64,000 nucleotides of DNA, from NCBI RefSeq assembly GCF_964355755.1, contig NC_092679.1, forward strand, positions 2,170,001 to 2,234,000, given 5' to 3'. This stretch comes from Antedon mediterranea (Eukaryota > Echinodermata > Crinoidea > Comatulida > Antedonidae). The translations under genes were made by a program, and so were the position numbers. The notes beneath the pieces are model-generated. The model was not told the DNA's origin, searched no databases, and was given only the letters and a program-made list of their open reading frames with translations. Of this stretch, positions 33,435 through 59,475 are shown piece after piece; position 1 is the stretch's first letter, and each line of letters begins with the position of its first letter.

Positions 33435-34030
33435 TGCATAATAACCAATAGGATAAAAACAAATTCATTGATGCATAACTAATGAGGTCAAATGAATGAC
33501 CTGCATATTCATTGACGTCTATGAATAATAGCATGATGATACAAGTATATCAGTCAAAATTACCAATCGGCCATTGATGCATAACCAATGAGGTCATATG
33601 AATGACCTGCATATTCATTGACGTCTATGAATAATAGCATGATGATACAAGTATATCAGTCAAAATTACCAATTGGCCATTGATGCATAACCAATGAGGT
33701 CATGTGAATGACCTGCATATTCATTGACGTCTATGAATAATAGCATGATGATACAAGTATATCAGTCAAAATTACCAATCGGCCATTGATGCATAACCAA
33801 TGAGGTCATATGAATGACCTGCATATTCATTGACGTCTATGAATAATAGCACGGTGATACAAGTATATCAGTCAAAATTACCAATTGGCCATTGATGCAT
33901 AACCAATGAGGTCATGGGAAATGGTCAATGACCTATCCATTGATGCATAACCAATGAGGTCATATGAATGACCTGCATTTTCATTGAGTCCTATGCGTAA
34001 TAGCACGGTGATACAAGTAGATCAGTCAAA
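33435..34030. repeat. 106-bp tandem array derived from the PSME4 3' end
   Basis: The block CAGTCAAAATTACCAAT occurs at 33551, 33657, 33763, 33869 and, inside the PSME4 coding sequence, at 34023. Steps are 106, 106, 106 and 154 bp; the last step carries about 48 extra bp. On the minus strand each copy therefore repeats the end of the PSME4 reading frame (LVILTD and what follows, to a tyrosine pair and a stop) and its 3' flank. Copies are nearly identical. Confidence 0.92.
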
Positions 34031-43000: not shown

Positions 43001-46000
43001 GACTTGGTATCGTCGGCATGATTTTGCAACATGTACGCTTGTAGGTCATTCATTAGATTTGCAACCTCCTCTCTTGTGTTGTTGAACACACCTCCAGTGT
43101 CAGGTACACCAGTTGTAAGATGCATCTCATTGTAGTCAGCTCTTGAATAATTTCTGCATTCAATAAAAATTTATCAAAATTTTACAAAACATAATAACGA
43201 AAGCACTTCAGAAACTGAGTGAAGTACTTCTCAACATATATCAGGGAAAACTATATTCGGAGAGAGAGGTCCAACTACTTGATATTTTGGTTCATGTTAA
43301 AAGAATACAGAGGGCATGCTATTTAATATATCGTATGAAAGATACAGGCAAGACAGATTTTATTATAATAAACTTTTGTGACATGAATAATATATCAATT
43401 TTCTTGTTGTGTTCTGTAAGTATTAACACCCAACAATTCAGGACAATAACTTAAAAATTGTGGACGCCATCGTGCTAGAAACAAACGAAGCAAGTACATA
43501 AGTCTAGAAAACGTTACTTTTGTCTATGGCACACATAGTTTTAAGAACAGAATTCATGACAGTTACAATAGTCTGATCTGATTCAAACCATAGTTACCAT
43601 ACTTTCCCAATCCAACCTACACCAGCATTGGTGCAAATTGGTATTTTAGGATATTGTAGGTTGGTTTTGTGGAAGTTGCTTATATTGTTATTTTTCTGGT
43701 GAAATTGTTTCTCTTTTTGTTTTTTGTATGATTTGTATATGGATAAAGTAACAAATGAATGAAATATTAAACTTACACGTCAGCCAATGGTTCCTTGTTC
43801 CATCGAGGCAGAATGAACGCCATTCCAACAATGGTGTTCAGAATGATTGTCAACGACTGCAACAACTCATCTCTGAAATAAATAAGGTACCTATTTATAC
43901 TCATGGGTAAAAATAAATAATACCTAGGGACTGTTAAAAAATGACTACCCTATATCACAATGGTATAATCCGATGCTTGTCTATAATTTAATTTAAGCTA
44001 AATTTGGATAAAATATTCCCCAAATTTCATACCCATGTTTCCTGGGATTATACTCAGTAATATATAATATTATGTTTATTCTCTTTCAATTGAACAATCC
44101 AATACACATAATGGTCAATCAGTAATGCCGAATCACTTGCCACAGTCAAACAACTCCTAAAATCCCACATTTTATTTTGCACTTTCATCATTAATCAATT
44201 TTTGCTATTTTTTTTCTGTTGATTGTTCAGTGACTATTTTTTTTGTGCGCTATATAAATTGAACTTTATTATTATTATTTATGTATATTAACATAATTTA
44301 CCTGTTAAGAGGCTGTCCTTGAACAAAACCTTTAATCCTTTCAATTTCTGGATGAAAGAAAATGTCAAAAAATTCTTTGGCCGCCTCTACGCCTTTTGGT
44401 GTTGGAATATGCCACTGAATGTTGAGGGATTCGACATCACCAGTTGTACCCCAATGCTATAGAAATAAGCAAATTAATACTAATAATGTGTTGAAAGTTG
44501 AGAAATAATATAAAAGGTATCCACAGACACATATCTGTAATCTCATTGTAATTTTTTTTCTATTTTGTAAATGGTGGACTCTGCTTAAAATCTATTTCTA
44601 GATTTATTTTGACAACCATCCACATTTATATATATTTAATGATTTATCAAGAAAATGTATGTATTATTTGTGGAAAATCAATAAACAACAACAAAAATTA
44701 TCTTCTGTATGTGTTCACAGTCACGCTCTCTACTTACCCTAAATGGGAGATACTCTGATATAGGTCTACTTAGGCCTTCAGCAATGCTGCAATACTCTAG
44801 TGGGTAGATGATTGTCATAGCCTTAAGAAAGTACTTAAGTACAGTACTACTTACCCTAAATGGGAGATACTCTGATATAGGTCTACTTAGGCCTTCAGCA
44901 ATGCTGCAATACTCTAGTGGGTAGATGATTGTCATAGCCTTAAGAAAGTACTTAAGTACAGTACTACTTACCCTGATTGGGAGATACTCTGATATAGGTC
45001 TACTTAGGCCTTCAGCAATGCTGCAATACTCTAGTGGGTAGATGATTGTCATAGCCTTAAGAAAGTACTTAAGTACAGTACTACTTACCCTGATTGGGAG
45101 ATACTCTGATATAGGTCTACTTAGGCATTCAGCAATGCTGCAATACTCTAGTGGGTAGATGATTGTCATACCCTTAAGAAAGTACTTGAGTACAGTACTA
45201 CTTACCCTGATTGGGAGATACTCTGATATAGGTCTACTTAGGCCTTCAGCAATGCTGCAATACTCTAGTGGGTAGATGATTGTCATAGCCTTAAGAAAGT
45301 ACTTAAGTACAGTACTACTTACCCTGATTGGGAGATACTCTGATATAGGTCTACTTAGGCCTTCAGCAATGCTGCAATACTCTAGTGGGTAGATGATTGT
45401 CATAGCCTTAAGAAAGTACTTAAGTACAGTACTACTTACCCTGATTGGGAGATACTCTGATATAGGTCTACTTAGGCCTTCAGCATTGCTGCAGTACTCT
45501 AGTGGGTAGATGATTGTCATAGCCTTAAGAAAGTACTTGAGTACAGTACTACTTACCCTGATTGGGAGATACTCTGATATAGGTCTACTTAGGCCTTCAG
45601 CATTGCTGCAGTACTCTAGTGGGTAGATGATTGTCATAGCCTTAAGAAAGTACTTGAGTACAGTACTACTTACCCTGATTGGGAGATACTCTGATATAGG
45701 TCTACTTAGGCCTTCAGCATTGCTGCAATACTCTAGAGGGTAGATGATTGTCATAGCCTTAAGAAAGTACTTAAGTACAGTACTAGCTAACTGGTAACCC
45801 TGTTTACATCTTAAATGTAACGTGGCGCGTAGAACCTTTAAGATTGTACTCTTGTAGGTTAACAGCACTGCACTATCACAGCGAACAATCTAAAATATAG
45901 AAACATTTCAATAAAAAAATAATATTTTTGTAGAATTTCTTTAATATTGATGATAATGGTACTGGTACTAGTTCAAATAACCGTCTCACAGAGACATCTG

Positions 46001-49000
46001 GTAGCCATTGACTTGAAGTTGGCATTTGGATGTGTGATTAAGATGAAAAGAGATGGAGATAATGATTATTATAGTGACAATGATGATTAAGATTATAATA
46101 CTAATGATGATAATGATGATAATGATGATGATGAAGATGATGATGATGATGAAGATAATGATGATAGTGATAATGATAATAATGATGATGATGATAATGA
46201 TGATGATGATACTAGTGATGATGAAGATGATGATGATGAAGATAATGATGATAGTGATGATGATGATGATAATGATAATGATGATAATTTTGATGATGAT
46301 ACTAGTGATGATGAAGATGATGAAGATACTGATGATGATGATGTTGATGATACTGATGATAATGATGACGATGACAACGATGATGATACTGATGATAATT
46401 AAGATGATGACAATGATGATAATGATACTGATGATTATGATAATATAACGATACATCATACTATGGTAATAGGCATTAGGGCAATATAAAGCTTAATGAT
46501 AAATATAAAAAGAACAACTAAGAATGAAGCCAAGTACCTCTGACAACACTTGAAGGTTAAATAGAAGTTCATTGTCAAGCTCCACTTCATTCTGTACCTC
46601 TTCTGATGACGTCAGTGACAACACAATACGGCTACAGTGAGGGATGAACTTGCTCAGTGCTTTTGTTGGGTTTACCTTAAAAAAAATTATAAAAATAGTA
46701 CTACCACAACACTTCCTGGAAAACACATTTTACAGCAGCCTTATTTTTTAAATTAGGTCAGTAATTTTATAAACCTAAACTAGAAAGAAATCAAAGAAAT
46801 ATCAAATGAAGAGCAGGATGGAAATTATATATTGCCAAAATTTTAGAGGGTCTTCAAATAGTGACCTTTCTTAGAAATGGTGACCTCTCTTAGTACTAAC
46901 CTTCACAGTAGATCTACACAAACTTGCCAACATTTTGCCCGCTACTTTGGTTTCAAACACTCGGGATGACATGTAGCGAAACAGCTTGTCCAACGCAACC
47001 TGTAAAATAGTGAAAAATATGAGAAGGCCAAGGGAAAAATAGATGATTGAAATGCTTAGAGTCAAGCCACTAAAGCTCTGTCTACACTATCAAACTTTAA
47101 TTACCTGATAGATTTGAGGAGAACACTGGTTGAGCATGGTACTGAAGGTGGATGCCAGCCCTACCTCGACAAGGTTCTCCTGCCGGTTCACCTTGGCTTG
47201 AGTAGAGTCTTGTGATGTGGTGTGTTCAAATGTGCTGTTCTCTATCAGTATGAAACATCTGCAAAAAATGTATTATAATCATGAGGATGATGTAATGATT
47301 TTGTGTCCTTCCAATCAAAACTTGTCTGTAGTTAAGAATTTTCAAGACTGCGTTTAGAAACATATGTTTATTTCTTATTACATTTCATAACCAACTAAAT
47401 TTGTTATTTATTTTTATTTTATTGATTTGGATTATGATAGCAGAAAACACACTATAGCCTGAAAGACGTCCGTCAATATCTTCTAGGCTGTGTGTACTAG
47501 TACACCAGTGAAACCCTACCTGTCTCAAAAGATGTACTAGTTTCTTTAAAGTGCCAGATGTGTATGGAAATACATTTTAATAAATACCTTTCCATAAAGA
47601 GCGTGATGAAGTCTTCAAATGCTGCTGTCGCTGAGCAAAGTTCACGTTCCTGCTCCGTCAGATCCGTCCAGTGCAAGTGAGCTTGTGAACAGTCAACTAA
47701 GGGTACCAGGGCTACGAACGTTGAGATGGCTTGAAATGTTATCTAATGGCAGATAGAAAGGCTGGTTAAACATAATAACTATGGTGGGCTACTGGGGACA
47801 AAATCTAAGTGGCTTGGTCAAGATAATTCACAAGTTCACTGTATATTGTAATAGCATCTCTATGTGAATTAACATATATAAAAATACACAATAAAGATAA
47901 ACTTAAGAATCTATATTATTTTGAGAAGATATTTGGTCTTATTGCACTTACCATACACTTGATAAAATCATTAGGATCAATGCCAGGCAAGACCGCCATC
48001 ATCAGTGGCAATACATGAGTGGGGCCCTCAGGAAACCGCTTGCGGCCCTTCAACATGGATCGTGCAACTGATACCACACAGCTCAGGGTTGCAGTCAGTT
48101 GATGTGGCTCAGTGAGCGTTTCCAACGCTGCATACGTCCTGAAATGATGTCATAATTATGAGAGAATTGTTGGGTCTGATTTGATTTTCCTAAAAAGGGT
48201 ATAAAAATCTAAGTTCCCTAAATAAATTTAAACCACACCAAATACAATATAATCTAATATTACAGTATAAATAAATTTTGTTTGCATTCTTAGTAAAGTA
48301 TTTACTTTTCAAGGAGTTGTGGTATAACAAGCTCAGGTCTAACAAGTGACAGGCACTGTAGGCCCACAGCAGCATCAAGGTGTCCCATTTTACTGAAGAT
48401 AGCCAGGAAAATAACAGGTTTGAAAGCCTCTACAAACATCGTAATATCACTCTCAGTCAGCCTGTAGTCTTCTGGGATACGATTTTGCCAAGATTCAGGT
48501 GCATATCGCTCTCTGTATAAATAAATAGTGAAAAAATTAAAATGAGTAAATGGTCTCCTGATAAATACCCTCAATAAAATTCCTCTTAATAAAAAACTTG
48601 TTTTCTCTCATAATCTCATAAAGTGGTATCTATAGTACATGATAGTACTGACTCTCACTTAAGAAGCCCTGGGGTATTAAGTTTTCCAAAAAATAAGAGA
48701 TTTTTTCATACAAAATTTATCCATTACATTTTGAACAACAATTCACCCAATTTCACATCAAAGGATTTATATTATATCATTTAAAAAAATACTTGATTTA
48801 CCTGTGTAGACGATTTATAAATGCTTGAGGGATTTTGTGGAGTACCCGCTGTAACTTGAACTGACAAAATAAATATTAAAAACATATAATTAAAACAACA
48901 ACGGCAATATGATGTCAGCGGATTTATGACTAAATACCGTTTGATTTTACGATCATTCGGGAAATTACCTCATGATGCTATTCCAGTGTGTAAACATATG

Positions 49001-58597: not shown

Positions 58598-58819
58598 GTA
58601 AGTTTTATCATTTTAGCTTTTATTTATTTATTTATTTATTTTTTGCCGCGATCTTAATTATTAGGATTTATTCCAAATAACCTAGGCCAGTAGCAGACGG
58701 TTTCGGTTTTAGAATTCGACTTCAATAGTACATACATATTATCTATTTAACATGTTTGTCGTCTTAAACATTAAAAAAAAATTAAAGTTAAAATAAAGGA
58801 AATTGTTTTACTTGTGCAG
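58598..58819 (+). other. putative 5' UTR intron of the repeat-protein gene
   Basis: AAAG then GTAAGT at 58598 and TTGTGCAG at 58819 bracket 222 bp directly before the ATG at 58822. This would give a short untranslated first exon. Confidence 0.5.
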
Positions 58820-58821
58820 CT

Positions 58822-59475
58822 ATGAATGCCGATAAAGAAGAAAATAATGAATTTGAAAATACACAATTCAGAATCCCTGAAATTTGTAGTGGTCCAGCCT
58901 GTACTTTTCGGATACCCATCCAAGAAACCAGTGGTTCTGTCGATGATACTGATCGACATCACGTTGAAACAAGTCCACCAATTGCCTTGGTTGAAAACAG
59001 TGGTATCTTGAATAGGCATCCGATCCAGGAGGTTGGCGAAAACGCTACCGATTCTCTTAAATTCGGCATAGAAGAAACAAATGCCGAACATGTCATTAAT
59101 ACTCCGATCCAGGAGGTTGGTGAAAACGGTACTATCGTGTTTACTGATTTTCTTAAATTCGGCATAGAAGAAACAAATGCCGAACATGTCATTAATACTC
59201 CGATCCAGGAAGTTGGCGAAAACGGTACTGTCGTGTCTACCGATTCTCTTAAATTCGGGATAGAAGAAACAAATGCCGAACATGTCATCAATAGTACTCC
59301 GACCCAGGAGGTTGGCCAAAACGGTACTGTCGTGTTTACCGATTTTCTTACACTCAGCATAGAAGAAACAAATGCAGAATGTATCGTTAATGAGCCTCCG
59401 ATTCAAGAAGTTGGCGGTAGTGTGGCGTATACTGATTTTCCTAAATTCGGTATTGAAGAAACTAATTCAGAATAA
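58822..59475 (+). CDS. unrecognised 217-residue acidic tandem-repeat protein
   Basis: Single open exon, ATG three bases after a good splice acceptor. I do not recognise the family. From about residue 66 to the end the protein is five repeats of 25-33 residues, with the core PIQEVGENGT, then TDFLKFG, then IEETNAEHVIN; repeat 4 is the most diverged and repeat 5 ends at the stop. A weaker version (PIQETSGSVDDTD) precedes them at about residues 32-44. It is rich in E, N, T and V, with no signal peptide or membrane segment. Repeats are also clear at DNA level (about 96-99 bp), which opens shadow frames on the minus strand. It could be a structural or intrinsically disordered protein, or a non-coding repeat that happens to be open. 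Confidence 0.6.
   Translation: MNADKEENNEFENTQFRIPEICSGPACTFRIPIQETSGSVDDTDRHHVETSPPIALVENSGILNRHPIQEVGENATDSLKFGIEETNAEHVINTPIQEVGENGTIVFTDFLKFGIEETNAEHVINTPIQEVGENGTVVSTDSLKFGIEETNAEHVINSTPTQEVGQNGTVVFTDFLTLSIEETNAECIVNEPPIQEVGGSVAYTDFPKFGIEETNSE

Follow-up and report, generated by a model that had tools for sequence, protein, structure and literature searches.

The PSME4 (PA200) gene in the 64-kb window, by which we mean the whole stretch of DNA analyzed, was found to carry nine tandem copies of a 117-bp unit, and in every one of these units the 5' splice site of an exon has been copied. The array is probably a recent donor-spanning minisatellite which is spliced mainly from its first donor, with low-level in-frame inclusion of extra units. 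The features on which this reading is based are listed in Table 1.

Table 1. Coordinates of the PSME4 features and exon-end arrays within the window (slash, splice boundary).
Feature	Position	Strand	Evidence
PSME4 exon, first-donor form, 216 nt, human PA200 ~683-754	45674..45889	-	gapless PA200 alignment
Preceding PSME4 exon (part), end TCAGAG/GTACTT, phase 0	46538..46597	-	tblastn and boundary
Next PSME4 exon, donor CAG/GTAAAT	44302..44456	-	PA200 match; single genome hit
Ancestral unduplicated intron sequence, acceptor tatttctatag/CATTGG	44457..44737	-	
Copies 2-9: intronic under donor-1 splicing, up to 8 in-frame 39-residue cassettes with later donors	44738..45673	-	unit alignment, translation, Tandem Repeats Finder
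Donor 1, AGG/GTAAGT, 5' splice site presumed to be the main one, 1217-nt intron	45668..45676	-	
Donor 9, AGG/GTAAGT, last in array, adjoins ancestral intron sequence, intron 281 nt	44732..44740	-	
106-bp array derived from the last PSME4 exon end (LVSPCYYA, stop), located past the true stop codon	33466..33915	-	

Analysis with Tandem Repeats Finder placed the array at 44730-45785 on the minus strand (period 117, 9.0 copies, 98% matches, 0% indels; about 1.05 kb in total), and a script scan located nine identical donors, AGGGTAAGT, at 117-bp spacing, each unit ending in AGG/GTAAGT. The corresponding exon ends are 45674, 45557, 45440, 45323, 45206, 45089, 44972, 44855 and 44738. Both analyses confirmed the nine open units with intact GTAAGT donors which had been described in an initial sequence-only reading of the window. 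That reading had given the interval as 44732-45889; the array does lie there, but the part outside the repeat proper consists of the first 99 exon bases, which are not duplicated. Copy 1 makes up the last 117 nt of exon 45889-45674 (acceptor ttttag/ATT, donor AGG/GTAAGT) and begins with TTAGCTAGTACTG. It is followed by eight further 117-base units, GTAAGTAGTACTG...CCAATCAGG, the last of which ends at 44738.

Frame 0 is open across the whole 45889-44732 stretch, through the last donor. As had been proposed, every one of the nine donors could be joined to exon 44456-44302 in phase 0 with the frame open, and the predicted coding potential for 0 to 8 extra 39-residue cassettes was upheld. Across the nine products the exon grows from 216 to 1152 nt while the intron shrinks from 1217 to 281 nt. 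The spliced junction would read AGG/CATTGG, and read-through into the following unit would give AGGGTAAGTAGTACTG. The junction residues VSS were present in copies 2-9 only, with copy 1 reading LAS instead. Each donor matches eight of nine consensus positions, which is the level of the gene's best donors; the best candidate acceptor inside the unit, TACTTTCTTAAG/GCT, has a pyrimidine fraction of 0.71 and lies in phase 0. A search of the 354-Mb genome with the unit returned, at the sensitivity of that search, the array alone, with no unit elsewhere and no processed gene copy recording past splicing. The genome itself consists of 11 large contigs of 22-41 Mb and small pieces, suggesting 11 chromosomes.

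The identification of the host gene as PSME4/PA200, already made in the sequence-only reading, was borne out by a phmmer match to the solved human PA200 (E 1.1e-38) and by a match to Pfam PF16507 (HEAT_PSME4_mid) of 77.9 bits against a cut-off of 25.2. Further PSME4 exons were mapped by tblastn as far as the C-terminal YYA; the human PSME4 C-terminal bait served for locating exons only, and PDB sequences were used to confirm the exons flanking the array. A Pfam search of the genome matched the PSME4 mid-region family at the array locus only, with no second PSME4 locus. The mapped introns in this part of the gene measure about 93-685 nt, and the intron upstream of the donor-array exon is 648 nt long. 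This same intron holds a long imperfect ATC/ATG-type repeat at 46052-46444.

With respect to the origin of the array, its three boundary sequences were compared. The exon reads CAGTTAGC TAG TACTG, the unit junction AGGGTAAG TAG TACTG and the array end AGGGTAAG TAG AGAGCG, giving a single breakpoint with a 3-bp microhomology, TAG. This comparison indicates that a segment running from within the exon to a few intron bases was duplicated and that the array then grew. In the founding event GTAAG/TAG in the PSME4 intron would have been joined to C/TAGTACTG of the exon that precedes this intron, so that the duplicated segment would comprise the last ~112 exon bases and the first intron bases, 5' splice site included. 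Unequal exchange or slippage would then have brought the array to nine copies. Along the array the variants are ordered (copies 2=3, 4=5=7 and 8=9), and such sharing between neighbors is the pattern that would be expected of exchange or slippage of whole units. Because the first-donor product can be aligned to human PA200 with no gap, copy 1 represents the ancestral exon end, and copies 2-9 arose by expansion. That the unit length is divisible by three is a one-in-three event for which selection is not needed.

The product of donor 1, ...YLPIR-HWGTTGD..., aligns gaplessly to human PA200 residues 663-796 (E 1.1e-38), with copy 1 corresponding to residues 716-754. Since loop 2 of human PA200, a long loop between HEAT repeats, spans residues 729-773 (PMC7077846), the splice junction falls within this loop. 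The cassette had been likened to a HEAT repeat, and it does share features with the PA200/Blm10 HEAT repeats, in that the host is a HEAT-repeat protein and 39 residues lie within the HEAT length range. It is, however, by homology to the human protein, a single helix followed by the first half of loop 2, with no alpha-turn-alpha pair, as opposed to a two-helix module, and a HEAT-repeat cassette was thus ruled out by the PA200 alignment together with the published loop boundaries (PMC7077846). Models of low confidence gave a similar picture. In that of the 72-residue exon (pLDDT 57) helices at 6-30 and 32-49 preceded a low-confidence tail and the unit covered the second of the two long helices only; in that of the 386-residue open stretch of the array (pLDDT 56) each unit formed a single long helix. 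A loop presumably accommodates an insertion more easily than a helix pair does, and PA200 may therefore form a length series. The alternative offered at the outset, in which the array is a recent minisatellite and the first donor does most of the splicing, has the better support.

Most transcripts would use donor 1, firstly because the flanking introns exceed the 200-250 nt limit of intron definition, which favors the shortest exon (216 nt), and secondly because the protein product of this donor is the conserved one. When two identical CAG/guaagu donors competed in human minigenes whose flanking introns measured 365 nt, only the upstream donor was used; intron definition gave way to exon definition at 200-250 nt, and exons longer than 250 nt were disfavored (PMC9225289). 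With an upstream intron of 648 nt and a downstream intron of at least 281 nt, the first donor is predicted under this human-derived rule. Donor choice nevertheless sits near the definition boundary, given the ~93-685 nt introns of the gene, and the rule comes from human data while the host is another animal. Copies 2-9 would then behave as intron. A small fraction of transcripts would probably carry one or more 39-residue insertions in loop 2, because the extra donors match donor 1 and all products keep the frame. In the human ABCA7 gene, transcripts retaining one unit of a variable number tandem repeat (VNTR) at an exon donor amount to about 2 ± 1% (PMC5954066), and by analogy this figure, taken with the minigene rule, leads us to expect that the first donor predominates and that in-frame leakage is low. 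Products carrying insertions would escape nonsense-mediated decay; if tolerated, as may be the case, they would allow the array to persist and its copy number to vary.

Substantial use of several donors, giving a PA200 length series with 0-8 extra 39-residue cassettes in loop 2, is unlikely but is the strongest alternative. All nine donors are identical and strong (8/9 consensus, level with the gene's best), all nine products are open and in frame, an insertion into the long inter-HEAT loop need not break the solenoid, and silent changes among the copies are slightly in excess. These points are countered by the exclusive upstream use of identical donors in an exon-defined context and by the disfavoring of exons above 250 nt (PMC9225289), as all products except the first have exons of at least 333 nt; open frames, moreover, are expected by chance at the age of the array. 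We are equally doubtful that a single gene yields, through nine identical competing donors, a graded set of PA200 isoforms carrying 0-8 inserts in ratios set by allele copy number.

The substitutions among the copies bear on these alternatives. The unit alignment gave approximately eight substitution events, four of them replacements (A/G, N/I, G/C and I/F) and four silent, where about three quarters of random non-stop changes would be replacements under the null. Four or fewer replacements in eight events has a probability of 0.09-0.13, so silent changes are slightly over-represented. The chance of encountering no stop was 0.67-0.74, and that of the nine donor bases remaining unchanged was 0.52. 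Selection read from openness or from donor invariance was accordingly set aside as statistically unsupported, both being likely by chance. The open frames and intact donors are explained by the recency of the array, and use is not thereby shown, while the slight silent excess together with nine open copies leaves room for weak constraint.

Less probable still is predominant use of the last donor at 44738 through proximity across the intron, which would produce a PA200 with eight extra cassettes (312 residues). Under intron definition the classical proximity rule prefers a downstream donor (Reed and Maniatis, cited in PMC9225289), and the 281-nt intron of donor 9 is of typical size and near that of the gene's other introns, whereas the 1217-nt intron of donor 1 exceeds every other intron mapped in this region of PSME4. 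However, 281 nt lies above the 200-250 nt at which exon definition takes over, the exon would reach 1152 nt, and a 312-residue insertion is absent from the solved human PA200. An assembly artefact, or a shorter array wrongly sized, is highly improbable: the array comes from a single assembly, but its copies differ by variants that are ordered and either shared or private, the window's other arrays have a similar appearance, and the ordered variants and shortness of the array (only 1.05 kb) make an assembly error less likely.

A second array in PSME4 also arose from an exon end. The 106-bp array (4.2 copies, 97% identity) lies a short way past the true stop codon (33991-33993), beyond which it has copied the C-terminal CYY motif four times; its unit length is not divisible by three. 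Exon-end arrays have thus arisen in PSME4 on two occasions, once outside the coding frame, which supports an ordinary minisatellite process. Counting arrays with a unit of 40-250 bp, at least 2.8 copies and at least 88% identity, we found six minisatellite-type arrays in the window (units of 62, 68, 106, 117, 96 and 71 bp) versus two in 142.5 kb of sampled genome (P 0.013, a descriptive value only as the window was chosen post hoc). The array at 58771-59475, with a 96-bp (also 192/195-bp) unit, lies inside frames that stay open for 227-231 codons on each of the two strands; neither strand gave a Pfam match above the curated cut-off.

The array had been called rare, which is fair, but there is precedent in the VNTR of human ABCA7 intron 18 (PMC5954066). 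This repeat also begins exactly at an exon donor, its first GT being the exon 18 donor, and its units can copy the donor; its copy number varies and a transcript retaining one unit was detected. While the ABCA7 repeat has a 25-bp, out-of-frame unit present in 12-427 copies, is intronic and has not duplicated exon codons, the PSME4 unit is 117 bp long, mostly exon and in frame, and is known here from the DNA of one assembly. The PSME4 array is a candidate donor-spanning VNTR, set apart by its in-frame, mostly exonic unit. Duplication across an exon-intron boundary likewise copies splice signals in intron gain by tandem duplication (potato RdRp, PMC4974935; the AGGT model). In potato RdRp the acceptor boundary was crossed and a new intron formed, whereas in PSME4 the donor boundary was copied and the expected outcome is competition between donors. 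The locus is the natural counterpart of the identical-5'-splice-site minigenes (PMC9225289), in which identical donors in one exon also face one acceptor, although those constructs had two plasmid donors in human cells, compared with nine in the native gene of another animal.

Choice among identical splice sites has been studied in designed minigenes, and the PSME4 locus offers a native, equally spaced series of nine. As every product is in frame, nonsense-mediated decay hides no outcome. Donor use falling away from donor 1 would point to exon definition and use rising toward donor 9 to intron definition, so that the two would be separable in one gene. The locus could also reveal if extra length can be accommodated by a proteasome activator.
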